Shown piece by piece: positions 1,704 to 35,889 of a stretch of DNA of 36,717 nucleotides (its first letter is position 1; every line of letters begins with the position of its first letter). Origin of the DNA: a virus; IMG/VR virus record IMGVR_UViG_3300036795_000436, positions 1-36,717 of that record; one strand, 5' to 3'. The notes beneath the pieces were generated by a model that was given only the letters and a program-made list of their open reading frames with translations, was not told where the DNA came from and searched no databases. The position numbers were made by a program, and so were the translations under genes.

Positions 1704-1954
1704 ACGCCATGCTCCGCCGCCGCGCCCAGACCGCCGACGCCACCGGCCTGTTCGATGACTGCGAGGCGTGCGGCACGGCACGGGGTGTGTCCGTCGTCTA
1801 CTTCGACGGCCACCCGGCCGCGGGCATCACCCCGGCCGCGCTGGTGCTGTGCGTCGTCGACGCGCAGCTGGCGCAGGCAGCAGGCGGCTTCCGGGTCGCG
1901 CGCCACGGCGCGCTGGGCCGCACGCTGCTCAACCTGTACGGGACGGCGAAGTGA
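1700..1954 (+). CDS. Small early protein, unknown function
   Basis: 84 residues from the GTG that overlaps the previous stop by 4 bases; ATG at 1709 is an alternative. It contains two clusters that could form a small metal site or disulfide (DDCEACGTARG near residues 19-29 and a later single Cys) and a hydrophobic alpha/beta body (VSVVYFDG, AALVLCVVDAQLAQAAGGF). No family is recognised. It overlaps the ParB-like gene downstream by 4 bases. Confidence 0.6.
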   Translation: MNAMLRRRAQTADATGLFDDCEACGTARGVSVVYFDGHPAAGITPAALVLCVVDAQLAQAAGGFRVARHGALGRTLLNLYGTAK

Positions 1955-3450
1955 GCGCCGCCGTGCGGGCCGCGACGCCGCGGCCGGTCGATGCCGAGGA
2001 CCTGGCGGGGCTCGCTGAGTCCACCGGAATCATCCACGACGCCCGGCCCACGCCGGCCGCGGTCGAGATCCCGGAGCCCGGCGCCGGCGAGCAGGTCCTC
2101 GAGCTGCCGATCGAGCAGGTGCACCCGAACCCGCACAACGTCCGCGAGGACGTCGGCGACGTCACCGAGATGGCCGAGTCGATCAAGGGCTCCGGCATCG
2201 TCGAGCCGCTGATCGTCGTCACGACCGCGGCGTACTGGGCAGCGACCGCGGACGAGGCCGATGCGGGTGCGACTGACTTCGGCTGGGTGATCATCGCCGG
2301 GCACCGCCGCCGGGCCGCGGCTGAGAAGGCCGGCCGCGCGACGGTGCCGTGCATCGTCCGCGACCGTTACGCCGGACCCGAAGGCCGGCTCGTGATGCTG
2401 ATCGAGAACCTGCACCGCGAGGACCTCAAAGAAATGGAGGAGGCCCGCGGCTTCCTCGAGCTGTCCCGCCCGCCGTTCAACCTCAGCCAGCGCGCCATCG
2501 CGGCCGGCGTCGGCTGCAGCCAGTCCAAGGTCGCGAAACGGATCTCGCTGCTGAGCCTGCCCGAAGACATCCAGGCCGACGTCGCCGCTAAGCGGATGGA
2601 GATCTCCGAGGCGGTCGAGCTCGCCCGCTTCGCCGACGACCCGGAAGTCTTCAACGCGGTGCGCAACCGCGGCGCCTACACCTCGGTCGACGCGGCCGCC
2701 AAGACCGTCGCGCAGGACCGGGCCCGCGAGCAGCTGATCGCCGCGAAACGCGCGGAGCTCGAAGCCGCCGGCGGTGCGCGGTTCGTCGACTGGCCCGCGC
2801 ACGGCTACTGGAAGACGTGGACCTCCATCAGCGACCGCGACAAGGAGATGTCGCTGCAGGCGCTGCGCAACGTCGGGGTCAAGACGACCGGTCACACCGA
2901 GCTGGACTGTCACGCGGTCTCCCTCGGGCTGCGGGCCGGCGACCAGGTCGAGGTCATCGAGGTCTGCACCGACGCGCAGTCCCACCTGCGCAAGATGCGC
3001 GAGAACAAGTCGAAGGCCGAGCAGGCCAAAGAACGCAAGGCGGCCAAGGAGCGAGAGACCGCCGAGGCCGCGGCCGCGGACCGCCGGCGCATCGCCACCG
3101 CCGCCGTCAAGGGCCGCCTCGCGGCCGCCACCGACAACCTCGCCGGCGACCTGGCCCTGACGATCCTGCTCGACCTGCTCGAGGAGGACCTCGCCTTGGC
3201 GTGCGAGCTGCTCGGCAGCCCACTGCCCGAGGACGCGGCGTACGGCGCGGAAGCCAAGCTGCTCGCCGAGCTCGCCGCCAAGCCCGGCGGGACCAAGCGG
3301 GTCGCCGCGGCGGTCGCCTTCGCGTTCGTCGAGGAGCGGATCTCCGGCGGCTGGCGCCAGGTCGGCGCCTCGACCTACCTGCGGTGGCTGCAGTCCCAGG
3401 GCCATGACCTCACCGGCGAAGAGCGCAAGCTCGTCCAGGACCCCTCGTGA
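1951..3450 (+). CDS. ParB/Spo0J-like nuclease-fold and DNA-binding protein
   Basis: 499 residues. The N-terminal ParB/sulfiredoxin-like domain is clear: a box I-like segment (VHPNPHNVRED, residues 57-67), the box II-type arginine patch AGHRRRAAAEKAG (116-128) and the ENLHRED segment (152-158). A KorB/ParB helix-turn-helix follows (LSQRAIAAGVGCSQSKVAKR, 178-197). The remainder, to residue 499, includes a highly charged helical stretch (about 350-385) and a globular C-terminal part with no recognised family. In chromosomal and plasmid systems the box II arginines bind CTP. Phage versions act in partition, nicking or regulation, and which applies here is unknown. No ParA ATPase is encoded in the window, arguing against a classical plasmid-type partition locus. 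Start GTG overlaps the previous stop. Confidence 0.85.
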   Translation: MSAAVRAATPRPVDAEDLAGLAESTGIIHDARPTPAAVEIPEPGAGEQVLELPIEQVHPNPHNVREDVGDVTEMAESIKGSGIVEPLIVVTTAAYWAATADEADAGATDFGWVIIAGHRRRAAAEKAGRATVPCIVRDRYAGPEGRLVMLIENLHREDLKEMEEARGFLELSRPPFNLSQRAIAAGVGCSQSKVAKRISLLSLPEDIQADVAAKRMEISEAVELARFADDPEVFNAVRNRGAYTSVDAAAKTVAQDRAREQLIAAKRAELEAAGGARFVDWPAHGYWKTWTSISDRDKEMSLQALRNVGVKTTGHTELDCHAVSLGLRAGDQVEVIEVCTDAQSHLRKMRENKSKAEQAKERKAAKERETAEAAAADRRRIATAAVKGRLAAATDNLAGDLALTILLDLLEEDLALACELLGSPLPEDAAYGAEAKLLAELAAKPGGTKRVAAAVAFAFVEERISGGWRQVGASTYLRWLQSQGHDLTGEERKLVQDPS

Positions 3451-4158: not shown

Positions 4159-4964
<806 letters not shown>

Positions 4965-5001
4965 GCCGGGCGATGGGCCGCGTCGGTCTGGTGGGGCCGA
5001 C

Positions 5002-5367
5002 GTGAGCGCCGTCCTCGCCAAGGTCGGCGTGCTTGTCTACGGCCAGATGGTGACGTGCAAGCCGGGCGACCCTTCCTGCCCGGATCCGACGATGCACGGC
5101 CGGATCAACGGTGAGCCGGTCGGGCCTGAGCTGCCGAACGCGATCTCGTGCACGGACTGCGGCCGGCTGGTCTACCTGGCGGAGGTCACGGTCTTCCCAC
5201 CCGGGTGGCGACCGACGATCGGCGAGCGTCATCCGCGCGACGCGCAGCGGGTGTTCGCGGTCGTAGAGAAGATCGTGCTCAGCCCGCTGGACCGCGCGAT
5301 GCTCGGCATCACCTCCGATGACCGTTGGGCGCTCGAGGACCATTCGTGCGGCGGGTGGCCACGATGA
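5002..5367 (+). CDS. Small protein with possible zinc ribbon
   Basis: 121 residues, GTG start. A candidate zinc site is made of C-K-P-G-D-P-S-C (residues 19-26) and C-T-D-C-G-R-L-V-Y-L-A (50-60), followed by a beta-rich segment with FPPGWRP. No family is recognised beyond that. A very short reading frame (4961-5005, 14 codons) overlaps both the previous stop and this start and might only serve translational coupling. The downstream gene starts inside its stop codon. Confidence 0.6.
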   Translation: MSAVLAKVGVLVYGQMVTCKPGDPSCPDPTMHGRINGEPVGPELPNAISCTDCGRLVYLAEVTVFPPGWRPTIGERHPRDAQRVFAVVEKIVLSPLDRAMLGITSDDRWALEDHSCGGWPR

Positions 5368-17852: not shown

Positions 17853-17868
17853 CGCCTCTCGCGTGACC

Positions 17869-17908
17869 CGCGGCCCGCGGCGAGCTCACAACGCTCGCCC
17901 GGGCCGCG
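17869..17908 (+). terminator. Strong hairpin after the capsid gene
   Basis: Arms CGCGGCCCG (17869-17877) with CGGGCCGCG (17900-17908), and GGCGAGC with GCTCGCC nearer the loop, enclose a 7-base loop TCACAAC: about 16 pairs with one bulge. No U-tract follows, so it may attenuate, or stabilise the capsid message, rather than fully terminate. Confidence 0.6.
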
Positions 17909-17956
17909 GCCCCGACTTCTGCACGCCCACCTTTCCCAACACCCAGGGAGATCCGC

Positions 17957-18235
17957 ATGCACTACCGCGCCAACGACAGCGTTGCCGTGCGACACCCGCT
18001 CACCGGCCACATGCTCGTCCCGCCGGCCGCGACCGAGTACGACGGCGACGACCCGCTCGTGCAGGCCTACCCGTGGCTCTTCAACCGGGTCCACACCTTC
18101 GAGGACGCGTCGGCCGAGCCGGGCACCCGCCGCGCGCCGCGCGCCCCCAAGCCGGCCGCGGAGCCAAAGCCACCTGCAGCGAAGAAGACGGCGGCCAAGA
18201 AGGCCGCCGCAGCCAAGGCACCCACCAAGAAGTGA
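17957..18235 (+). CDS. Small head-region protein with Lys/Ala-rich tail
   Basis: 92 residues, GGGAG site 9 bases before the ATG. The first 55 residues are globular (YRANDSVAVRHPLTGHMLVP, DPLVQAYPWLFNRV). The rest is a histone-like Lys/Ala/Pro tail (AAKKTAAKKAAAAKAPTKK). Proteins of this kind directly after the capsid gene are common in actinophages and often carry basic tails. A head decoration or DNA-contact role is inferred from position. Confidence 0.6.
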   Translation: MHYRANDSVAVRHPLTGHMLVPPAATEYDGDDPLVQAYPWLFNRVHTFEDASAEPGTRRAPRAPKPAAEPKPPAAKKTAAKKAAAAKAPTKK

Positions 18236-18960
18236 ATCCAGGGACGGTCTCCGTCGGCTTCCTCGACCCGGGGCAGTGGTCGGCGAGCTTCGGGCTGAGC
18301 CTCGTCGAGCTCTACCTTGCCGACGCGCACTCCAGCCGGCGGATCGTCCCCGACGGCAAGCAGCTGCGCAACTACTGCGGCACCGGCGGCCTGGTCGCCG
18401 GCCGCAACGAGATCGCCGCGCAGTTCCTCGACGCGACCGACTCCGAGTGGCTGTTCATGGTCGATTCGGACATGGGCTTCGCGCCCGACACCGTCGAGCG
18501 CCTCCTCGCAGCTGCCGACCCGGTCACCCGACCCGTCATGGGTGGGCTGTGCTTCGCGCTGCGCCGCTCCGAGGCAGCCCCGCTGCACGCCACCCGCTAC
18601 GTCAGCGTCCCGACCGTGTACGACTTCGTGGAGACCGACACCGAGGTCGGCTTCCTCACCCTCCTCGACTACCCGCGTGACGAGGTCATCACCGTCGCCG
18701 CCACCGGCGCCGCCTGCCTGCTGGTCCACCGCAGCGCCCTGACCGCGGTCCGCGATCGCGCCGGCGACCACTGGTTCGACCCGGTCACCCACCCCCGCGA
18801 CACCACGTTCAGCGAAGACCTGTCCTTCTGCGTGCGCCTCGCGGCCGCCGGCATCGCCCTGCACGTGGACACCGGCGTGAAGACCTCGCACCACAAGGGC
18901 GGCGTCTACCTCGACGAAGCCCACTTCGACGCGCAACGGATCCCGGAGGCAGTCAGCTGA
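18232..18960 (+). CDS. GT-A glycosyltransferase in the head cassette
   Basis: 242 residues, GTG start in a 4-base overlap. The fold markers of a family-2-like glycosyltransferase are present: W-L-F-M-V-D-S-D-M-G-F, with the metal-binding DSD at residues 78-80, an E-D pair in S-E-D-L-S-F-C-V-R-L (195-196) that is a candidate catalytic base, and H-H-K-G-G near 220. The conserved block N-E-I-A-A-Q-F-L lies upstream. It transfers a sugar from an activated donor. Its place between capsid and connector genes suggests that it decorates a virion protein. The acceptor and sugar are unknown. Confidence 0.75.
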   Translation: MNPGTVSVGFLDPGQWSASFGLSLVELYLADAHSSRRIVPDGKQLRNYCGTGGLVAGRNEIAAQFLDATDSEWLFMVDSDMGFAPDTVERLLAAADPVTRPVMGGLCFALRRSEAAPLHATRYVSVPTVYDFVETDTEVGFLTLLDYPRDEVITVAATGAACLLVHRSALTAVRDRAGDHWFDPVTHPRDTTFSEDLSFCVRLAAAGIALHVDTGVKTSHHKGGVYLDEAHFDAQRIPEAVS

Positions 18961-25461: not shown

Positions 25462-27831
25462 ATGACCGACGCCACCGGGACGCTTGACCTTCCGTTCGTC
25501 TGGGCCGGCTACGTCCAGAGTGAGACCAGCTCGCAGCCCGACAGCGCCACGTCCTTCGCCGGGTCGAACGTCGACGGGCACCGGCTGCACTTCGTGTGGT
25601 CCGGTGTGCTCGAGGACAACGTCGACGTCGTCGACCCGCTCGACGAGACCCACGTCCCGATCGAGCGGGTGTCGTTCGTCATGCCGGCCCCGACGATCGA
25701 CCCGGACACCGGATACCCCGACGTGGACTGGGATCCGACCGAGGTCGACCGCAGCCTGTGGGGCAAGCTGCACCTGTCGATCAACGGACGCAGCCGCACC
25801 GTCAACCGCGGCTTCCCGTTCGTGCCGCTGCAGGACGCCGACACCGAGCCGTTCGGCGACGCCGACGCGTCGTTCCGGCTGCCCGGCATCACCGAGTTCG
25901 ACGATCCCGAAGCCGACTTCGGGATCACCGCGCTGTCCAAGGTCCGGTTCTTCCGCCGCGATATGGATGGCGTCGACCACACGCTGTACGAGGGTGTCGT
26001 CGCCTCGGTCGAACAAGACGACGCGCAGACAGGCGAGGACCCTGAGGACGCCGGCGTCGTCGTCGAGTGCATGGGCGTGCTCTACCGCCTCGACCTGCTC
26101 AAGGCCACCCCGCGGCTCTACCTCGGCGAACGTGACTACGGCGCGCTGATCGCGGACCTGATCAACAACAAGCGCGACGCGCACGCTCTCGGGATCGGCG
26201 CGATGCACCAGCCGACCACCGGTATCAAGGGTGTGCGGACCGCCGAGTTCGCCAACCTGCTCACCGGCGCCGTCCAGGACTACCTGGCCGACATGGTCGA
26301 CGACGACGGCGCCCAGTGGACGCTGAAGGTCCAGCGGCCACGCACCCCGAAGCTGGTCCGCAAGGACATCACCACTGTCGACGCGACCGTCACCTACGGC
26401 ACGCCCGGCGTCGTGGTGAACCTGTCCAAGGACTACACCGCCGCGACGACCGCGGCGTACGGCTCCGGCACCAACGGCCACTCGCAGTGGATGGGCGCCC
26501 GGTTCCCCAACCTCACCCAGGGCGACGCCCCGGAGTTCCCGCTCGGTATCGGGGGCAGCTTCAGCCCCGGCGACGACCAGGCCGGCTTCGCGGAGTTCGC
26601 CGCGTTCCTGCGCCGCGGCGACTACGGCGACATCGCCTCGGACGACACCTACCTCGCGGTCGACGAGGACAACGTCAAAGACTTCCAGGACGACGCCGGG
26701 CTCACCGAAGCAGGCACCGTCTCCGCCCAGACCTGGGAAGCGGCCTTCGCACCAGGCGCCAACCAGGGCACGATCCGCGGCGCCTACATCGGGGCGCTGA
26801 AGTCCAAGAGCGCCACCCGCAAGCACGTCCACAACGCCCAGGGCGCGATCACCGGCCGCAACCCTAACTTCGACCCTGCCGTGCCGCGCATCGAGGACTA
26901 CATTCCGTTCGGCGACCACGTCCCGAAAAGCCTCGCCCGGCGCTCCGTCAAGCAGCTCATCGACCGCGCCTACCCCGCCGGCGTGTCCGGCGAGATCATC
27001 CTCACCGCCGACCCCGAAGAGATGTCGCGGTTCGACCTGCGCTCGGGGATGAACATCAAGGTCAAGCACTTCCGCGGCGACCACGTCCTCGTCCACATCA
27101 CCCGCCGCGAGACCGACTGGACCGCCAGCGGCGGCACCGTCACCCTCACCGTCGACGAGAAAGCCAACGACGAGCTCACCGCCGCCGCCATCCACCAGCG
27201 CGACCGCGACACCTCCGACCTGGTCAAGCGCCACACCCACGGCAAGCGACGCTCCCGCGTCCAGAACGACTACGGCCCGTGGCTGTCCGAGGACGGCGCC
27301 GGGGAGATCCCGCTGATGTACCAGCAGGCCGGCCTGTGGAACACCCAGCGCATCCCCGCCGCGCCCAGCGGCACGCTCGAGCGGATCGTCCTCGCCGCCG
27401 GCACCGACCTGACCGAGCACCTACTCAACCAGGCGCTAAGCGCCAACAAGCCCGACGACATCCCCGGCGCGACCCGCGCGTGCATCCTCATCACCGGCCA
27501 GCCGATCCACCCGCGCGCCATCACCAGGCTGCCCGGCATGGGCACCCCGCTGACCAACCTGGCCGACGGCACCAGCCCGTGGGACAAGAACCACTCAGTA
27601 CTGCGCCGCAAGTTCCAGATGATCTACGCCGCCGGCGGCCCCGGCAACGCGCTCGGCTTCTTCCCGCACGACGACCCCGGCGACGGCTCCGACACCAACC
27701 TATCCGGGCTGTTCGAAGACGGCGGTGCGATCGAGTACGGGCCAACAGAGCACTTCTGGCTGTGGGTGTCGATCTGGACCCCTGACTCGTGCAAGATCGG
27801 CGGCCGGATCTACCCGGGCCCGCCGAGCTGA
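25462..27831 (+). CDS. Large tail tip / hub protein with PG-binding-like domain
   Basis: 789 residues. The N-terminal 300 residues are beta-rich and resemble baseplate-hub modules of siphophage tip proteins. At residues about 372-430 is a segment typical of a peptidoglycan-binding type 1 domain: E-F-A-A-F-L-R-R-G-D-Y, then V-K-D-F-Q-D-D-A-G-L-T, then T-V-S-A-Q-T-W-E-A. Such a domain on the tail hub would help the phage hold or cross the cell wall at infection. The C-terminal part (about 450-789) contains further beta domains and a Trp/Pro-rich end. No active-site pattern for an amidase or transglycosylase is visible. Confidence 0.65.
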   Translation: MTDATGTLDLPFVWAGYVQSETSSQPDSATSFAGSNVDGHRLHFVWSGVLEDNVDVVDPLDETHVPIERVSFVMPAPTIDPDTGYPDVDWDPTEVDRSLWGKLHLSINGRSRTVNRGFPFVPLQDADTEPFGDADASFRLPGITEFDDPEADFGITALSKVRFFRRDMDGVDHTLYEGVVASVEQDDAQTGEDPEDAGVVVECMGVLYRLDLLKATPRLYLGERDYGALIADLINNKRDAHALGIGAMHQPTTGIKGVRTAEFANLLTGAVQDYLADMVDDDGAQWTLKVQRPRTPKLVRKDITTVDATVTYGTPGVVVNLSKDYTAATTAAYGSGTNGHSQWMGARFPNLTQGDAPEFPLGIGGSFSPGDDQAGFAEFAAFLRRGDYGDIASDDTYLAVDEDNVKDFQDDAGLTEAGTVSAQTWEAAFAPGANQGTIRGAYIGALKSKSATRKHVHNAQGAITGRNPNFDPAVPRIEDYIPFGDHVPKSLARRSVKQLIDRAYPAGVSGEIILTADPEEMSRFDLRSGMNIKVKHFRGDHVLVHITRRETDWTASGGTVTLTVDEKANDELTAAAIHQRDRDTSDLVKRHTHGKRRSRVQNDYGPWLSEDGAGEIPLMYQQAGLWNTQRIPAAPSGTLERIVLAAGTDLTEHLLNQALSANKPDDIPGATRACILITGQPIHPRAITRLPGMGTPLTNLADGTSPWDKNHSVLRRKFQMIYAAGGPGNALGFFPHDDPGDGSDTNLSGLFEDGGAIEYGPTEHFWLWVSIWTPDSCKIGGRIYPGPPS

Positions 27832-29561
27832 TGACCTTCGGATGGCTCGTCGGCGGCGAGGTGCTGCACGCCGGCGTCGACGGCAAAGCGATCGGCTGGA
27901 AGATCGTCGCCGAACCGGACCCGCCGCTGTCGTTCTACCTTCTCGCCTACAACGGCAAGACCTACCTCGGCGCGGGCTGGGACGACAGCGAGCTTTACAC
28001 CTCCACCGATGGCAAGAAATGGCGCAAGCAGTCCGAGGACCTGCAGGTCAACCTCGTCGGCGGTGGGACTGCCGAGATCGGCCCCGAAGGGCTGATCGCC
28101 CACAACGGCACGTTCTGGCTCACCGGCCGGTTCACCGCCGACGATGCCACCACGGTCGTGATGTCCAGCAAGGACGGACACACCTGGAGCTCCTACCCGC
28201 TTCCCGATGGCGACCCGGACAGCGGCGAGCGAGGCTTCGACATCGCCGCCCACGGGCGCACCATCATCGTCCCGTTGCGAAGCGGCGCGATTCTGCGCTC
28301 CCACAACCTTGGCGCCACCTGGTCGCTGACCAGCGTCGACCCGATCCTCGTCGACTACGCAGCTGGCGACCACTACGACGAGTGGGTCGGCGTCGACACG
28401 GGTGAAACAAGCCCCATCTTCCCGATCGTCCCAACGCTCGACCCGGCCGACGGCAGCATCACGATCACGACCGTCGAAGACCCGGACCCTGCCTTCCCGG
28501 CCACACCGCGCCGTGCCTGGAGTGCCGTCTGGCGCACCAACTGGGGTCTCGGCGACCCTGACCCGTTCATCAGCCCCACCGGCGAGTTCGAGATCGCGTT
28601 CACCGTCGAGACCAGCATCGACATGTGGCTGTGGCTCGGCGACCTCAGCACCAGCGGAGGCGGGATCTTCACCGGCGTGCCTGACGGATGGGACGGCACC
28701 AACCCCTGGCTGTGCACTGCCGGCGAGCCGCTCGACATCAGCTACTCGTTCCTGCGCGAGAGCGGAGAGGGCAAGCTGCCGGGTGCGTTCACCGTCAACC
28801 GCAGCACCGACAACAGCACCGAAGACGGCACCGAAGAGACGATGCCTGGCGGTGAGACCATCACGATCAGCGGGTACACGGTCAAGCAGTACGCCGGCGT
28901 CGAGGCCTACAACGGCGGCGGCGACCTGCTCGACGGGCACGCCGGCTTCGTTCGCAACAACAAATGGGTCGTCGTACGGTCCTTCGGCTCACAGAACATC
29001 CCCGCAGTCGCACGATCGGTCGACGACGGCGCCACCTGGCAGCTCGAGCTCTCACCATTCGACTTCCAGCTGCAGGTCTCACAAGACGACGACGGCTGGC
29101 ACTCCGACCCGAGCACCACCGAGCGCGGCTTCCTCAAACAGCTCGTGTACGCCGACCATCGCCTTTTCTCCTTCGGCGGCCGGTACGACGACAGCACCCA
29201 CAGCTGCTACTGGACCCAGAACGGCGTCGACTGGACTGCCGTCGCTTCCCCGTTCGACGGCTACTCCGAAGGGATTCACATAGCGGCGATCGCGGCCGAC
29301 GGGTCTCTGCTGGCCCTGGGCTACCTGTCCGAGGAGATCCCGGACGCCTCGGCCCGGTCCCACGACGGCGGCATGACCTGGCAGCTTTCCGGGCGCGTCG
29401 GCGACACCCGGCTACTCGCCGCGGTCTGGGGTCCGATCTCCGATGTGCCGCTTCGCCAGCATCCACGCGACGACCCGCTCGGCGGCTCACCGCGCCAGAA
29501 CAAGTCGACGACCTCACGCCAGTCCTCACCCCGCCAGGGCTGGACCAACACCTACCGGTAA
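27831..29561 (+). CDS. Asp-box beta-propeller tail protein
   Basis: 576 residues from the ATG in TGATG (an upstream in-frame start at 27789 would overlap the hub gene). Six repeats of the Asp-box (S/T-x-D/N-x-G-x-x-W) are visible: residues 58-64 STDGKKW, 113-119 SKDGHTW, 157-164 SHNLGATW, 396-403 SVDDGATW, 462-468 TQNGVDW and 510-517 SHDGGMTW. That is a sialidase/BNR-type beta-propeller, interrupted by a beta-rich insertion (about 190-360). The Arg triad and Tyr of sialidases are not recognisable, so carbohydrate binding is more likely than hydrolysis. It is the likely receptor-binding or host-range determinant. Confidence 0.7.
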   Translation: MTFGWLVGGEVLHAGVDGKAIGWKIVAEPDPPLSFYLLAYNGKTYLGAGWDDSELYTSTDGKKWRKQSEDLQVNLVGGGTAEIGPEGLIAHNGTFWLTGRFTADDATTVVMSSKDGHTWSSYPLPDGDPDSGERGFDIAAHGRTIIVPLRSGAILRSHNLGATWSLTSVDPILVDYAAGDHYDEWVGVDTGETSPIFPIVPTLDPADGSITITTVEDPDPAFPATPRRAWSAVWRTNWGLGDPDPFISPTGEFEIAFTVETSIDMWLWLGDLSTSGGGIFTGVPDGWDGTNPWLCTAGEPLDISYSFLRESGEGKLPGAFTVNRSTDNSTEDGTEETMPGGETITISGYTVKQYAGVEAYNGGGDLLDGHAGFVRNNKWVVVRSFGSQNIPAVARSVDDGATWQLELSPFDFQLQVSQDDDGWHSDPSTTERGFLKQLVYADHRLFSFGGRYDDSTHSCYWTQNGVDWTAVASPFDGYSEGIHIAAIAADGSLLALGYLSEEIPDASARSHDGGMTWQLSGRVGDTRLLAAVWGPISDVPLRQHPRDDPLGGSPRQNKSTTSRQSSPRQGWTNTYR

Positions 29562-30011: not shown

Positions 30012-30770
30012 ATGGCGCAGACGCACGGCTACATCGCCGTCGACGACCTGAAAGGCGCGACCGTCACCGTCACCGTCACCGACGAGTTTGGCGACACCCC
30101 CACCGTCTTCACCAGCCGAAGCGGCTCGACCGCGCAGGACAACCCCGCCACCCTGACCGACCCCGCCGAGTTCCACGTCGGCCGCCCCGGTGACTACACC
30201 GTGGCGATGACGATCAACGACGTCGCCGCCGGCGGCGGATCCGTGCACCTGTCCGACGGGTGCCGGGCGGCGTTCTCCCCGGGCGTCTCGGGCACCGCCG
30301 CCGCCGGATCCGGCGGCGGAGGTGGCGCTTCTGAGCACTTGGGTGACTACGCCACTTGGTCACATTCCGGTGCGGCAGACGGTACGAGCGGATCGTTCGA
30401 CTACGACGTCGATCTGGCCGATTCCAGCGGTTCGACGGTCGGCGTCGATGACAGCCCCGAGTGGGCCGACCCCGACACCGGAAATTGGGGCTACCCGACG
30501 CCGCAGGTCACCGAGGCAGGCACCTACAGCGTGCTCGTCAACGTGACCTCAGGCGGCACGGGGACGCAGTTGACGCTCGAAGTGATGCAGGGCGACGGCA
30601 GCGGTGATCAGACCCCGTTCGGACAACAGTTTACCGTCGCTGTCCCCGACGGACTGACGACCACAGGCACCGTCACCGGGTACTTCCCGGCCGCCACCCA
30701 CTTCGACATCACGAACGCGGCTGGCGACTTCCCCGACGCTCTGAACCTGACGATCCAGCGGGTCGCCTAG
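30012..30770 (+). CDS. Fibre-like tail protein with jelly-roll C-terminus
   Basis: 252 residues. The first 90 residues are a beta domain (YIAVDDLKGATVTVTVTDEF, then PGDYTVAMTINDV). A Gly-rich hinge follows (AAAGSGGGGGASE, about 98-110), and a C-terminal beta domain (about 115-252) with T-W-S-H-S-G-A-A-D-G-T-S-G-S-F-D-Y-D and F-T-V-A-V-P-D-G that looks like a trimeric or jelly-roll head. Last forward gene of the tail cassette; probably a short tail fibre or receptor-contact protein. The stop lies in a small hairpin and the next genes run the other way. Confidence 0.6.
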   Translation: MAQTHGYIAVDDLKGATVTVTVTDEFGDTPTVFTSRSGSTAQDNPATLTDPAEFHVGRPGDYTVAMTINDVAAGGGSVHLSDGCRAAFSPGVSGTAAAGSGGGGGASEHLGDYATWSHSGAADGTSGSFDYDVDLADSSGSTVGVDDSPEWADPDTGNWGYPTPQVTEAGTYSVLVNVTSGGTGTQLTLEVMQGDGSGDQTPFGQQFTVAVPDGLTTTGTVTGYFPAATHFDITNAAGDFPDALNLTIQRVA

Positions 30771-30783: not shown

Positions 30784-30809
30784 CGTCCTCCGACTGCTCA
30801 TAGTGCGGC

Positions 30810-31223
30810 CTAGCAGGCTGACTTGGCCGAGTTGGTGTACGAGGCCGTCGCGCTCGCCGGCCCAATCCAGTTGTTCCCCGCCGTGGCGACGACGGTGTAC
30901 GTAAACGTCGAGTTCGCAGCGATCTGGTTAGCGCTTGAGTCGCTGTAGGTTGTCGTGGACGCGGTTCCGCTCGTAGCCGCGCCCGTCCCGGTGATGTTGT
31001 AGGACGTCGCGCCGGCGACCGCAGCCCAATGCAGAGTCACCACGATCCGCTGCCCGTTCCCGGGCCCGCACGTCAACGGGGTGGTGATCGATGTTCCGCC
31101 GAGCGCACCACCCTTCGCCACCGCGGTGCCTTTTCCGTTCGCCGACCACGCCGCGAACGCAGGGCTCGCCGACAGCAGCACCACGGAGGATGCTGCTGCG
31201 GCGAGCACAAACTGGCGGCGCAT
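30810..31223 (-). CDS. Exported protein with FN3-like domain (operon gene 4)
   Basis: 137 residues, ATG at 31223 on the reverse strand. A clear Sec signal peptide (MRRQFVLAAAASSVVLLSAS, cleavage after A24) is followed by the motif A-W-S-A-N-G-K-G-T-A-V-A-K-G-G shared with the two other signal-peptide proteins of the operon. The mature part (about 50-137) resembles a fibronectin type III domain (VTLHWAAVAGATSYNITG ... TFTYTVVATAGNN). Exactly two cysteines, at the start and end of the mature domain. Last gene of the operon, 11 bases after its neighbour. Function unknown; a secreted adhesive or fibre-associated role is inference. Confidence 0.7.
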   Translation of the reverse strand: MRRQFVLAAAASSVVLLSASPAFAAWSANGKGTAVAKGGALGGTSITTPLTCGPGNGQRIVVTLHWAAVAGATSYNITGTGAATSGTASTTTYSDSSANQIAANSTFTYTVVATAGNNWIGPASATASYTNSAKSAC

Positions 31224-31234
31224 GACGGTCAGAT

Positions 31235-31256
31235 TCAGCTTCCTGCGGTGACCGCG
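31235..31256 (-). repeat. 22-base near-repeat, copy in operon gene 3
   Basis: The last 22 bases of gene 3 (reverse strand, encoding A-V-T-A-G-S and the stop) match the last 22 bases of gene 1 (32373-32394) at 21 of 22 positions. Conservation at DNA level beyond what the protein needs suggests recent duplication or gene conversion. Confidence 0.7.
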
Positions 31257-31816
31257 ACAGTGGTGCCGGTGGTCAGGTTGAACACGAACGTCGCTTGTTG
31301 GCAGCCGTTGTTTGACCCAGCGCCCATCGAGATGACGCTGGCGCCGGTAGCGAGGACGGGTGTGCCGGTCGAGTTCGCGGGAATCACGACGCCAGTCGCG
31401 AGAACGCCTGTGGTGCCGGTCGACATACTGACGGCTGAGTTCCCCGGGTTGCAGGTCCCGCCGATCCCGCCGATCACTGAGTCCGGCTGCGCCTGAGCGG
31501 TGAAGTCGATCTTCGTGACGGTCACCGGGAACGGGTTCGTGTTGGCCACCGTGACCACCGGCACCACGCTCAACGTCGGATAGAGGCTCGCGCCACCGGC
31601 CGTCGAGGCGTTCGCCGCCGTGACAGTCCCGACCGGCACCGCGGCGCCGGCCTTCGCCGCGCCCGTGCCGAAACCGTTCGTCGACCACGACGCGAACGCG
31701 ACGCCGCCGCTGATCACGGCGATGTTCGCGACCCCGATAACGATCGCGCGACGCGACCACTTGATCTTCGACGTGGGGCTGCGATCCACGTCGATCTTCA
31801 ATCCGAGAATGTTCAT
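31235..31816 (-). CDS. Exported TasA/camelysin-like protein (operon gene 3)
   Basis: 193 residues, ATG at 31816. It has a long basic n-region (first 24 residues), a hydrophobic core (AIVIGVANIAVISGGVAFA) and predicted cleavage after A42. It is followed by S-W-S-T-N-G-F-G-T-G-A-A-K-A-G, which parallels the sequence after the cleavage site of other SipW-type substrates. The mature part is beta-rich, with N-T-N-P-F-P-V-T-V-T-K, two cysteines (GTC and NNGC) and a final A-V-T-A-G-S shared with operon gene 1. Probably secreted, beta-sandwich. No catalytic motif. Confidence 0.7.
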   Translation of the reverse strand: MNILGLKIDVDRSPTSKIKWSRRAIVIGVANIAVISGGVAFASWSTNGFGTGAAKAGAAVPVGTVTAANASTAGGASLYPTLSVVPVVTVANTNPFPVTVTKIDFTAQAQPDSVIGGIGGTCNPGNSAVSMSTGTTGVLATGVVIPANSTGTPVLATGASVISMGAGSNNGCQQATFVFNLTTGTTVAVTAGS

Positions 31817-31818
31817 TG

Positions 31819-32340
31819 CTAGCTCAGCCCTTCCTGGCCGGTCGCGGTGTAGCTCAATGGGAAACGCGCGCCCTTGCAGGCGTCTTGGTTCGTGGGCAGG
31901 TTCAGCATCGTCAGCGTCAGCGGGATGCGGACCTTGTGGTGCAGGTACGCCACGTAGCGCTTCGCGCCGGGCGCTGCGGAGTCGTAGCGGGTCGTGCTGA
32001 TGTTCTTCCTCGCGGTGCATTTCTCCGAGGCGTCGCCGACCTTGACGGCCGCTGTGTTGATGACCATCAGCGTGTGATGCGGATTGTGGATCCGGATCGT
32101 GACCTTCCTCGTCACGCCGGGCGCGAGGAACGCTGGCGACGAGCCGTGCACGATCAGCTGCGTCTTGACCACCTTGGCGACCCCGCCGTCTCCTGCGCCT
32201 GAGACCAAGGTTCGGTGCGAGGGACTCGCGAAGCTGCTGATGGTGGTCAGGGTGAGCCCGCCGACGAGAACGACGATGACCGCGCTCAGCAACCACGTCG
32301 ACCGCCGCAAATGGCGGAGCGTGGAGAGCATCTCGGTCAT
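31819..32340 (-). CDS. Membrane-anchored member of the exported family (operon gene 2)
   Basis: 173 residues, ATG at 32340. An N-terminal hydrophobic segment (residues 15-38, STWLLSAVIVVLVGGLTLTT) is preceded by basic residues and has no clear cleavage site, so it may remain as a membrane anchor. It lacks the W-x-x-x-G-x-G-T motif but shares the C-terminal signature N-x-P-T-N-Q-D-A-C-K with gene 1 (A-A-N-Q-D-A-C-R) and has exactly two cysteines. The core has an N-P-H-H-T-L-M-V-I-N turn like the N-T-N turn of the paralogues. It overlaps nothing and is 2 bases from gene 3. Possibly the anchor or accessory subunit. Confidence 0.65.
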   Translation of the reverse strand: MTEMLSTLRHLRRSTWLLSAVIVVLVGGLTLTTISSFASPSHRTLVSGAGDGGVAKVVKTQLIVHGSSPAFLAPGVTRKVTIRIHNPHHTLMVINTAAVKVGDASEKCTARKNISTTRYDSAAPGAKRYVAYLHHKVRIPLTLTMLNLPTNQDACKGARFPLSYTATGQEGLS

Positions 32341-32372
32341 CGTCGTCCTTCGTCAGTCGGGATAGGGCTAGA

Positions 32373-32394
32373 TCAGCTGCCTGCGGTGACCGCG
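32373..32394 (-). repeat. 22-base near-repeat, copy in operon gene 1
   Basis: Partner of 31235-31256; one mismatch at the seventh base (G here, T there, plus-strand sense). It covers the C-terminal end of the gene and its stop codon. Confidence 0.7.
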
Positions 32395-32843
32395 TAGTCG
32401 ACGGTCACGGTCTTGTTCCTGCAGGCGTCCTGGTTGGCCGCCGTGTTGTTCATCTGGATCGTGACGCCAGACCATGCGCCGACGCCGCTACCCGACGCGA
32501 TCTCCGCGTTGACCGGCGCGCTGCCAGTCACCGTGAAGTCAGCCGCAACGCAGCCGCTCGGCAGGGTGGAGTCGAGAACGCCGGTAACGGTGCCGACGGT
32601 GACCGGGCCAGAGTTCGTGTTGTTGAAGTTGCCGCTGAGGACGACCGGGGGGCCGCCTGGGTAAAGCCCGCTGATCGTGCTGGTCTGATGGACCGTGACG
32701 GCGACTGTGTCGCCGGTCGAAGCGGAGCCGGTGCCAATGCCGCTCTGAGTCCAGTAGGCCAGGGCGACGCCGCCGCCAGCGATGGCGATAGCGCCGGCGC
32801 CGAGGGCGACGGCTACCTTCTGCTTCTTCGTGTACTTGCTCAT
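32373..32843 (-). CDS. Exported TasA/camelysin-like protein (operon gene 1)
   Basis: 156 residues, ATG at 32843 with an AGGGGAG site upstream on the reverse strand; longer in-frame starts (to 32990) would read through non-coding-looking sequence. Signal peptide KYTKKQKVAVALGAGAIAIA and cleavage after A29. The motif Y-W-T-Q-S-G-I-G-T-G-S-A-S-T-G directly after the cleavage site is the clearest of the family. The mature domain has N-F-N-N-T-N-S-G-P-V-T-V and two cysteines (SGC; N-Q-D-A-C). First gene of the operon. The pattern resembles actinobacterial small secreted proteins and Bacillus SipW substrates such as TasA, which form surface fibres. No signal peptidase is encoded in the window, so a host SipW-type enzyme would be needed. 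Confidence 0.7.
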   Translation of the reverse strand: MSKYTKKQKVAVALGAGAIAIAGGGVALAYWTQSGIGTGSASTGDTVAVTVHQTSTISGLYPGGPPVVLSGNFNNTNSGPVTVGTVTGVLDSTLPSGCVAADFTVTGSAPVNAEIASGSGVGAWSGVTIQMNNTAANQDACRNKTVTVDYAVTAGS

Positions 32844-33084
32844 CTGTGCTCCCCTTCCGAGGGATCGTTGAGACGTCGGTTTCGCCCTGCACTCCCCGCG
32901 ACCGGCTCCCGATAGTTGGAGAAGCACAGGCGACCAACTCGGCCACGGATCGACGTTCGTCTCGAGCCCCCATGTGGGGCACTGGCGCACAGACTTGCGG
33001 CGGTGGCTAAATCGCGGCGCGACCTCAGCACAACTTCAGAACAACGTCACTTCGGTGACTTATGGCCCGATTCGGATAGGGCGG
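32844..33084 (-). promoter_or_regulatory. Upstream region of the exported-protein operon
   Basis: 241 bases with no convincing gene on either strand, and less GC-rich than its surroundings. Two inverted repeats are visible: GCCCC (32966-32970) with GGGGC (32976-32980), and GTCAC (33046-33050) with GTGAC (33055-33059) around a TTCG loop. The latter lies just downstream of the neighbouring regulator's stop, so it could be that gene's terminator or an operator for the operon. A -10/-35 pair cannot be assigned with confidence. Confidence 0.4.
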
Positions 33085-33507
33085 CTAGTCCGATTCGCTC
33101 AACCGTGTGACGAGCTGGTCGACGAGGCGCCGGTCCTCCGGTGACAGCACGCGCAGCGCCTCGGCGATCCGCTGCACCTCCGGGTGCATCTGCTCGAGCA
33201 CCGGCAGCAGCGACGCCGCGTCGATGTCGGATTCCTCGCGGACCCACTGCACGAAAGCGGCCTGGTCGACCTCGAGCGCCTCAGCGACACGGAACAACGT
33301 CTGGGTCCGGTACTCCTTGTCAACCTCGTCGAGCATGTTCCGCAGCGTCGCGTCGCTCATCCCCGCGCGGGTGAGCATCGTGTGCCGCGCCAAGTTCAGC
33401 GCCCGCATCCGCTCCGCGACGAACATCGCGAGCTCGTGACGGCGTCTCGGGCTCACGTGGTTGCGGTCGATCGCACTCTTCGGCACCCCCAGATCATGCA
33501 CCCCCAC
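33085..33507 (-). CDS. XRE-type regulator beside the lysis genes
   Basis: 140 residues on the reverse strand. Residues about 24-80 form a helix-turn-helix of Cro/C1 type (ELAMFVAERMRALNLARHTM, then SDATLRNMLDEV, then FRVAEALEVD). The tail from 90 to 140 is helical and acidic. The start is uncertain: GTG at 33507 gives this protein, and a later GTG at 33456 would shorten it by 17 residues. Neither has a good ribosome-binding site. It is divergent from the endolysin, only 20 bases away, and upstream in the same direction as the exported-protein operon. It might control the operon, the lysis genes or lysogeny. Confidence 0.65.
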   Translation of the reverse strand: MGVHDLGVPKSAIDRNHVSPRRRHELAMFVAERMRALNLARHTMLTRAGMSDATLRNMLDEVDKEYRTQTLFRVAEALEVDQAAFVQWVREESDIDAASLLPVLEQMHPEVQRIAEALRVLSPEDRRLVDQLVTRLSESD

Positions 33508-33527
33508 CTGCCCAGCGAAGGAGCACT

Positions 33528-34220
33528 ATGACCAAGCCTGCCTGGATCGTCGAGGCCGAGAGCCATCTCGGGTTCCGCGAGGGCGCGAACAACGCCAACC
33601 CGTTCGGCAAGCACTACAACATCGACCACGAGCCGTGGTGTGCGCTGTTCGTGAGCTTCTGCTGCGAAGCCTCCGGCCATCCCCTTCCCGAGATGCAAGC
33701 AGGGATGAGCGACGGTTACGCCGGCGTCGCGATCGGCATGGACTGGGCGAAGGCCAACGGCTTCTGGCGGCCCAGCTGGGAAGCGGTCTGCGGTGACGCG
33801 ATCGTCTACGGCTGGAACGGTCCGAGCTCGAGCCCGGATGAGATGCACACCGGCTTCGTCGTCTCGAGCGGGCCGAAGGGCTCGACCGGCCACACCATCG
33901 AAGGCAACCGCGCCGACCAGGTGGAACGCCAGACATTCACCGTCGGATCCGACGTCGTGCTCGGCACTATCGCGATCACCAAGATCCTCGCGTCGAAGAG
34001 CAAGCGGCCCCACAAGCCGGCGCCGCAGCCACGCCACCCGCATCACCCCGCCAACACCGGGCCCGGGCCGAAGCCTCGCGGTAAGCCGGTGCACTTCGGT
34101 CCGATCCGCACCCGCGTCGTCGACCACATCACCAAGGACCTCGCCGGCGGTCGCAAGCCCGACGCGGACGCCCAGGTCGAGCTCGTCGCGCTGAAGAAGG
34201 CGTGGCACAACGGTGCCTGA
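33528..34220 (+). CDS. Endolysin with CHAP domain
   Basis: 230 residues with an AAGGAG site before the ATG. The N-terminal CHAP (cysteine, histidine-dependent amidohydrolase/peptidase) domain has the catalytic Cys in P-W-C-A-L-F-V-S (C38), the G-D-A-I-V-Y-G segment (89-95) and the His in M-H-T-G-F-V-V-S (H107). A Pro/His-rich linker (about 160-190) precedes a C-terminal helical domain that may bind the cell wall. No signal peptide, so release depends on the holin. It overlaps the holin start by 8 bases. Confidence 0.88.
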   Translation: MTKPAWIVEAESHLGFREGANNANPFGKHYNIDHEPWCALFVSFCCEASGHPLPEMQAGMSDGYAGVAIGMDWAKANGFWRPSWEAVCGDAIVYGWNGPSSSPDEMHTGFVVSSGPKGSTGHTIEGNRADQVERQTFTVGSDVVLGTIAITKILASKSKRPHKPAPQPRHPHHPANTGPGPKPRGKPVHFGPIRTRVVDHITKDLAGGRKPDADAQVELVALKKAWHNGA

Positions 34221-34941: not shown

Positions 34942-35889
34942 TTGTCCGACCTCGTGCCACGACCCGCGGCGTCGGTCGCGATCGCGAAGCCGGTGATGAA
35001 CCGCGCCGAGCTGATCGCGGCGGCGTTCCTCGCGGCGTACGGCGGGCGCACCGCCGAGGCCTACAGCTGCGACCTGCGGCAGTACTTCACCTGGTGCGCC
35101 GGCGTCGACGTCGACCCGGTCGAAGCCTCGCGCGCCCACGTGCAGGTCTACGCCCGCGAGCTCGAGCAGGCCGGCCGCTCCCGGAGCACCGTCGCCCGCA
35201 AGCTGTCCACGCTGGCCGGGTTCTACGGCTACGCGGTCGTCGAGGACGTCATCGCCCGATCGCCGCTCGCACACGTACGCCGGCCGCGCGTCCCCGACGA
35301 GTCACCCAGGTTCGGTCTCGACCGCTTCGAGCTCGGCCGGCTGCTGGCCACCGGCGAGGAGCACAGCGCGATCGCGCTGGCCCTGGTGTGCCTGCTCGCC
35401 CTGAACGGCCTGCGGATCTCCGAGGCGTGCAACGCCGACATCGACGACCTCGACGAGGACCGCGGCCACCGGCTGCTCACCGTCACCCGCAAAGGCGGGA
35501 AACGCCAACGGATCCCGCTCGCACCTCGCACCGCTGCCGCTGTCACAGCGTTACCGTCAGTAGTAGCGCGCGCGCCTCGACCCGCCGGCCTCGCGGCGCC
35601 GACCCTATCGGCCGCGGGGCCGGCGGCTTCCCTTCTCGGTCTCGATCGCTTCGCCGCCTGGCGGCTGACCCGACGCCTCGCTGAGTCCGCCGGAATCACC
35701 AAAACCATTTCCCCGCATTCGCTGCGTCACACCTTCGTCACCCTCGCCCTCGACGCCGGCGTCGAGCTCCGCGACGTCCAGGACGCCGCCGGCCACGCCG
35801 ACCCGCGCACCACCCGGCGCTACGACCGCGGCCGCGACTCCCTCGACCGCGCCGCCACCTACCGCCTCGCCGCCTTCATCGACACCTAA
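34942..35889 (+). CDS. int: Tyrosine recombinase integrase
   Basis: 315 residues from a TTG with GGGAG (34932-34936) five bases upstream; ATG at 34999 is a weaker alternative. N-terminal SAM-like core-binding domain (residues about 20-110), then the catalytic domain with R158 (N-G-L-R-I-S), K184 (R-K-G-G-K-R), H259 and R262 (H-S-L-R-H-T), H285 (A-G-H-A-D) and nucleophile Y294 (R-R-Y-D-R). XerC/D-like size. It inserts the phage at attB and, with the excisionase-like protein at the left end, would excise it. Attachment-type repeats and a strong terminator follow. Confidence 0.92.
   Translation: MSDLVPRPAASVAIAKPVMNRAELIAAAFLAAYGGRTAEAYSCDLRQYFTWCAGVDVDPVEASRAHVQVYARELEQAGRSRSTVARKLSTLAGFYGYAVVEDVIARSPLAHVRRPRVPDESPRFGLDRFELGRLLATGEEHSAIALALVCLLALNGLRISEACNADIDDLDEDRGHRLLTVTRKGGKRQRIPLAPRTAAAVTALPSVVARAPRPAGLAAPTLSAAGPAASLLGLDRFAAWRLTRRLAESAGITKTISPHSLRHTFVTLALDAGVELRDVQDAAGHADPRTTRRYDRGRDSLDRAATYRLAAFIDT

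Follow-up and report, generated by a model that had tools for sequence, protein, structure and literature searches.

Four adjacent genes on the reverse strand of a temperate-type actinophage, referred to here as A to D, encode a block of exported surface proteins. Rather than being an invention of the phage, the block is a reduced, virus-borne form of an operon that soil actinobacteria have in their chromosomes for the export of surface proteins, which are probably adhesive or fibre-like; it is probably a moron cassette and is somewhat reminiscent of TasA systems. The explanation that we consider probable is that the cassette is host-derived and represents a minimal form of a chromosomal surface-protein operon, from which a TasA/camelysin-like surface assembly would be exported. 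The window analysed is the whole of a single IMG/VR virus record (IMGVR_UViG_3300036795_000436; 36,717 bases), which carries genes for terminase, portal, capsid, tail, a CHAP endolysin and a tyrosine integrase.

Gene organization of the block

Genes A (32373-32843, 156 amino acids), B (31819-32340, 173 amino acids), C (31235-31816, 193 amino acids) and D (30810-31223, 137 amino acids) are intact open reading frames on the minus strand, separated by gaps of 32 (A/B), 2 (B/C) and 11 (C/D) bases. They are flanked by plus-strand genes, with the last tail gene ending at 30770 on one side and the CHAP endolysin (33528-34220) on the other, and the coordinates and gaps are exactly those originally predicted, as are the neighbours. 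The tyrosine integrase is also on the plus strand (34942-35889; PF00589, 1.9e-22) and marks the phage as temperate-type. The same phage encodes a ParB-like protein (1768-3450), and its tail region includes a protein with BNR/Asp-box repeats, a sialidase-like propeller (27789-29561).

Five minus-strand genes lie between the tail gene and the endolysin, namely A to D and a small HTH-type regulator (33085-33507) directly upstream of A, which was absent from the original prediction. The regulator has weak matches to PHROG repressors (best 5.9e-4) and is a possible controller of the block. The region between the regulator and A, a putative leader or promoter (32844-33084, minus strand), contains no sigma-70 consensus promoter; a palindrome within it, GTCACCGAAGTGAC (33046-33059), is of a frequency expected by chance. 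No terminator was recognized for the block, and terminator-like sites occur at chance level. The whole minus-strand unit of regulator and block is flanked by an imperfect inverted repeat (74%, core TCATAGTGC; 30795-30817 and 33512-33534), which could mark the route of acquisition or may equally have arisen by chance.

Purine-rich Shine-Dalgarno sequences are found just 5' of A (AGGGGAG), B (GAAGGACG) and C (AGGAAGG), while for D the sequence AGGAAG occurs approximately 17 nt upstream, within the 3' end of C. The GC3 of the block genes (0.83-0.90) is like that of the phage genes. Each of the four proteins has a hydrophobic segment in its first 40 residues (score 2.0-2.7); among the other 44 or so putative coding sequences, only the capsid ORF, the start of which is probably wrong, scores above 2.0 in this region, and a holin-like ORF lies just below that value (1.99). 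That A to D are real genes for exported proteins is argued by their ribosome-binding sites, by their high GC3 and by the occurrence of four N-terminal hydrophobic segments in one cluster. The 3' ends of A (32373-32394) and C (31235-31256) are near-identical over 22 nt (GCGGTCACCGCAGG[C/A]AGCTGA) and the sequences that precede them differ, which suggests gene conversion or a shared signal.

Export signals and domain structure

The products of A, C and D share an N-terminal layout in which basic residues are followed by a hydrophobic stretch and an AxA-like site, after which come an aromatic residue and a G-rich segment; the mature proteins start with x-[W/F]-[S/T]..G.G.G. The signal peptides are of the SipW type, with ALA followed by YWTQSGIGTGSASTG in A, AFA followed by SWSTNGFGTGAAKAG in C and AFA followed by AWSANGKGTAVAKGG in D; C and D also resemble each other in the DNA of their signal regions (77% over 56 nt). 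The aromatic residue is W or F across A, C, D and their homologues, as in the SipW-cognate class. Gene B encodes an N-terminal hydrophobic anchor or signal peptide. Export segments had been predicted for all four genes and are present on each, but the description of B as anchored calls for a caveat, since chromosomal homologues of B show AxA ends that resemble cleavage sites; B may therefore also be cleaved.

A, C and D fall below the cut-offs of the curated families TIGR04088, TIGR04089 and PF12389 (for A, TIGR04089 gives 6.6 bits against a cut-off of 60, and TIGR04088 gives no match). A profile of the A family matches a true TIGR04088 protein (65%, E 6e-5), with the match confined to the signal-motif segment. 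BP_149, an unclassified actinobacterial MAG with a chromosomal version of the block, encodes a further AYWT-motif protein that scores above the cut-offs of both TIGR04089 and TIGR04088; its gene adjoins that of a SipW-like peptidase, which ties the signal motif of A, C and D to the SipW class. Hosts of the chromosomal block encode a SipW-like peptidase elsewhere in the genome, outside the block; a match to TIGR02228, a common peptidase family, was found in 9 of 9 genomes with the block or its A gene, and in seven it exceeds the cut-off. A SipW gene of the phage itself was considered and rejected, as there is none in the contig, and we infer that a host enzyme processes the phage proteins. A, C and D would leave the cell via Sec and would depend on a SipW-like peptidase of the host for cleavage before the conserved x-W-[S/T]..G.G segment.

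Following its signal peptide, A has a beta-sandwich domain with C98 and C141 and a C-terminal end of NQDACRNKTVTVDYAVTAGS. The AlphaFold model of A places the beta-sandwich at residues 51-156 (pLDDT about 70-87) and predicts that the segment following the cleavage site is disordered. The C-terminal domain of B is like that of A (C108/C155, NQDACKGARFPLSYTATG), and the C-terminal motif NQDAC[RK] is common to the two proteins; the AlphaFold model of B was too poor for a fold search. C is a paralogue of A, and D comprises about one Fn3-like domain in addition to the signal peptide. None of the four proteins was assigned to a family in curated libraries. HHalign profile comparison gave values of 98.7% for A-C, 97.4% for A-B and 72.7% for B-C, which shows that a single beta-sandwich domain is common to A, B and C. 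The cysteine pairs are invariant in the A and B families when aligned over their full length. In the C family there is one invariant cysteine near the end, and most members have a second at the equivalent position, for which the alignment is not clear in the phage protein.

Chromosomal homologues and distribution among phages

A relative of the block was found by tblastn against plasmids, on an Arthrobacter replicon in which homologues of A, B and C occur in the same order and are followed by a large Fn3-like gene. When 84,980 genomes were scanned with a profile built from two sequences, 22 loci emerged, nearly all of which have A-B-C-D on one strand with genes that overlap or almost do so. 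The holders of the block are about 20 Micrococcaceae genomes, BP_149 and, in part, Nocardioides and other lineages; the complete order on one strand is seen in Arthrobacter, Paenarthrobacter, Sinomonas and BP_149, and in Nocardioides gansuensis A is followed by an Ig adhesin gene. The chromosomal block is patchy in its distribution, the A gene being present in 13 of 396 sampled genomes of the phylum. A published account of the actinobacterial A-B-C-D block, or a name for it, was not found in a literature search that covered papers outside subscription. BP_149 also carries a second copy of B-family genes (contig C69, approximately 4255-5122, minus strand).

Sequence homology to the chromosomal block was found for phage A, B and C. 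Phage A is homologous over its full length to the chromosomal A proteins, with about 40-47% identity, and phage B matches Arthrobacter B in BLASTP with a value of 3e-11. In a phylogenetic tree phage A lies within the Nocardioides/BP_149 clade (100/99), where it has no near relative and the tree gives it no firm position. The chromosomal D proteins carry Fn3 and Ig adhesin repeats and have matches among biofilm adhesins of solved structure (Lap 2.7e-8, Bap-type 5e-5), and the Nocardioides D has Ca_tandemer adhesin and Big_13 repeats above curated cut-offs. The Ig repeats are absent from phage D, the profile homology of which to chromosomal D has a probability of only 8%; one locus (L076) matches it at 41% over 41 amino acids (E 0.005). 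Position and signal motif do agree, and on these grounds phage D appears to be the equivalent of the chromosomal Fn3/Ig adhesin, with a weak sequence relation between the Fn3 domains. Overall, the phage block is like its chromosomal counterparts (for example in Arthrobacter sp. NtRootA1 and BP_149) in gene order, strand and overlapping or nearly overlapping genes, in the SipW-type signal motif that A, C and D carry, and in the domain common to A, B and C. It is unlike them in being virus-borne, in the divergence of its A protein and in its short D.

These size differences bear on an alternative reading, namely that the phage proteins form a truncated mimic, one that would join, cap or replace a surface assembly of the host to which the same or competing phages attach, so that the lysogen resists further infection. 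The lack of the Ig adhesin tail in phage D would fit such a role, as would the absence from phage B of the N-terminal Ig-like domain found in Micrococcaceae B, and Ltp (PMC3952083) is a precedent for phage lipoproteins that are exposed at the surface and act in superinfection exclusion. However, the chromosomal B of BP_149 also lacks the Ig-like domain and is just as short as phage B, so size alone is no mark of a decoy, and we regard superinfection exclusion by such a mimic as an unlikely explanation of the block.

No match to A to D was found in 50,697 phage records, and tblastn against INPHARED and scans of IMG/VR with A and B family queries gave no phage relative by methods that very distant ones would escape. 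This contig is the sole phage example of the block in the IMG/VR and INPHARED collections searched, and the original prediction is borne out in that the block does not belong to a common set of virion proteins. Assignment as a virion or tail set was likewise rejected, the homologues being bacterial chromosomal genes. Ten related viral loci, all of them partial or distant relatives, share parts of the head module with the phage, and the block is present in none. Two of the longer of these loci also share two tail-region genes, and in the two longest the tail-lysis region could be read and contains no block-like genes. The lack of the block in these kin, the lack of viral relatives and the existence of chromosomal homologues indicate that it is an accessory of this phage with bacterial ancestry, and the level of identity argues against a very recent capture from any of the genomes searched. 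A search with the portal protein against 149 genomes in the order of BP_149 gave no match and is uninformative on the host. A gene with a PHROG glycosyltransferase match (17863-18960; 8.4e-22) is oddly located between the capsid and head-tail genes, and is kept with the head module in related phages.

The location of the block between the tail genes and the endolysin raises the possibility of late expression, in which the proteins would help lysis, release or progeny spread, through envelope disruption or aggregation of debris, and would not serve the lysogen. We consider this improbable, as the block is on the strand opposite to the tail and lysis genes and has a regulator of its own upstream, the tail-lysis genes of related phages occur without it, and its homologues are bacterial chromosomal genes and not lysis genes. 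Recent passenger DNA or an assembly chimera, functionless in the phage, is an equally doubtful account: the GC content of the block is slightly lower (66.1% versus 69.3% for the remainder of the contig) and there is a single contig, but all four ORFs are intact, have ribosome sites and are high in GC3, the identity to any known bacterial copy is only about 40-47%, and phage genes adjoin the block closely on either side, all of which argues that it has long resided in the phage and been retained.

A candidate surface assembly of the lysogen

In the TasA and CalY systems, subunits cleaved by SipW polymerise, each subunit being complemented by the N-terminal strand of its neighbour, and TapA initiates the process (PMC9674648, PMC10151520, PMC13082335). 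The phage block resembles the TasA/camelysin-SipW-TapA operons of Bacillus described in these studies in that its exported proteins include small, beta-rich paralogues whose signal peptides are of the SipW type, that these have a second, non-identical partner, and that an aromatic residue is conserved right after the cleavage site. In contrast to these operons, it is without a peptidase gene, has a cysteine pair and lies below the PF12389 cut-off, with no hit for the phage proteins and 15.4 bits against a cut-off of 22.5 for the best chromosomal A homologue; moreover, there is no outstanding fold match for the phage proteins, and filament formation by them is hypothetical. Foldseek with the model of A returned nothing significant. 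In a VIA-align fold search with the same model, TasA (PDB code: 5of2) was ranked 16, with a Z-score of 4.2 and an rmsd of 5.3 over 106 residues; unrelated beta-sandwiches scored equally. Comparison of the predicted fold thus appears neither to support nor to exclude a likeness to TasA.

Under the moron-cassette reading that we favour, B would be tethered to the membrane or released from it, and A and C would be the paralogous small beta-sandwich subunits of a fibre. The N-terminal segment freed by cleavage could conceivably act as a donor strand to give a thin filament, on the analogy of TasA and CalY, with B as a TapA-like membrane-side starter or chaperone and D as an accessory or tip. We offer the assembly of A to D into a fibre as a hypothesis. 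If made in the lysogen, the proteins would change the cell surface and so may affect attachment, aggregation or the masking of a phage receptor. Known surface morons or lysogenic conversion genes, such as Ltp (PMC3952083), are likewise accessory genes for exported proteins in temperate phages with kin that are without them; the present block differs from the Ltp type in being a four-gene export set with the synteny of a host operon and not a single lipoprotein.

The original prediction had described a moron cassette that alters the surface of the lysogen. This part fits the export signals of the proteins, the lack of a match to a virion set, the kin without the block, the integrase and the homology to an adhesin operon. 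The further proposal of a candidate undescribed system, in so far as it would be specific to the phage, is not supported: a bacterial operon is the source of which the block is a reduced copy, and the signal peptides are similar to the recognized SipW type.

A more ambitious version of the model, which we put forward tentatively and with considerable doubt, is that a miniaturised bacterial surface-fibre operon provides an exported filament or cap that is complete in itself and matures through the SipW-like peptidase of the host, and that this structure remodels the surface of the lysogen and keeps out competing phages. To our knowledge no phage-encoded TasA-like matrix system has been known before, and this would be the first, if true. 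The block links phage biology to an actinobacterial surface operon family with SipW-type export that is undescribed in the literature searched. With the prophage, a lysogen would have such surface proteins in a second set, which would allow a direct test of phage manipulation of Gram-positive fibre or matrix surfaces, and structural studies of the chromosomal family could conveniently use the small phage copies.
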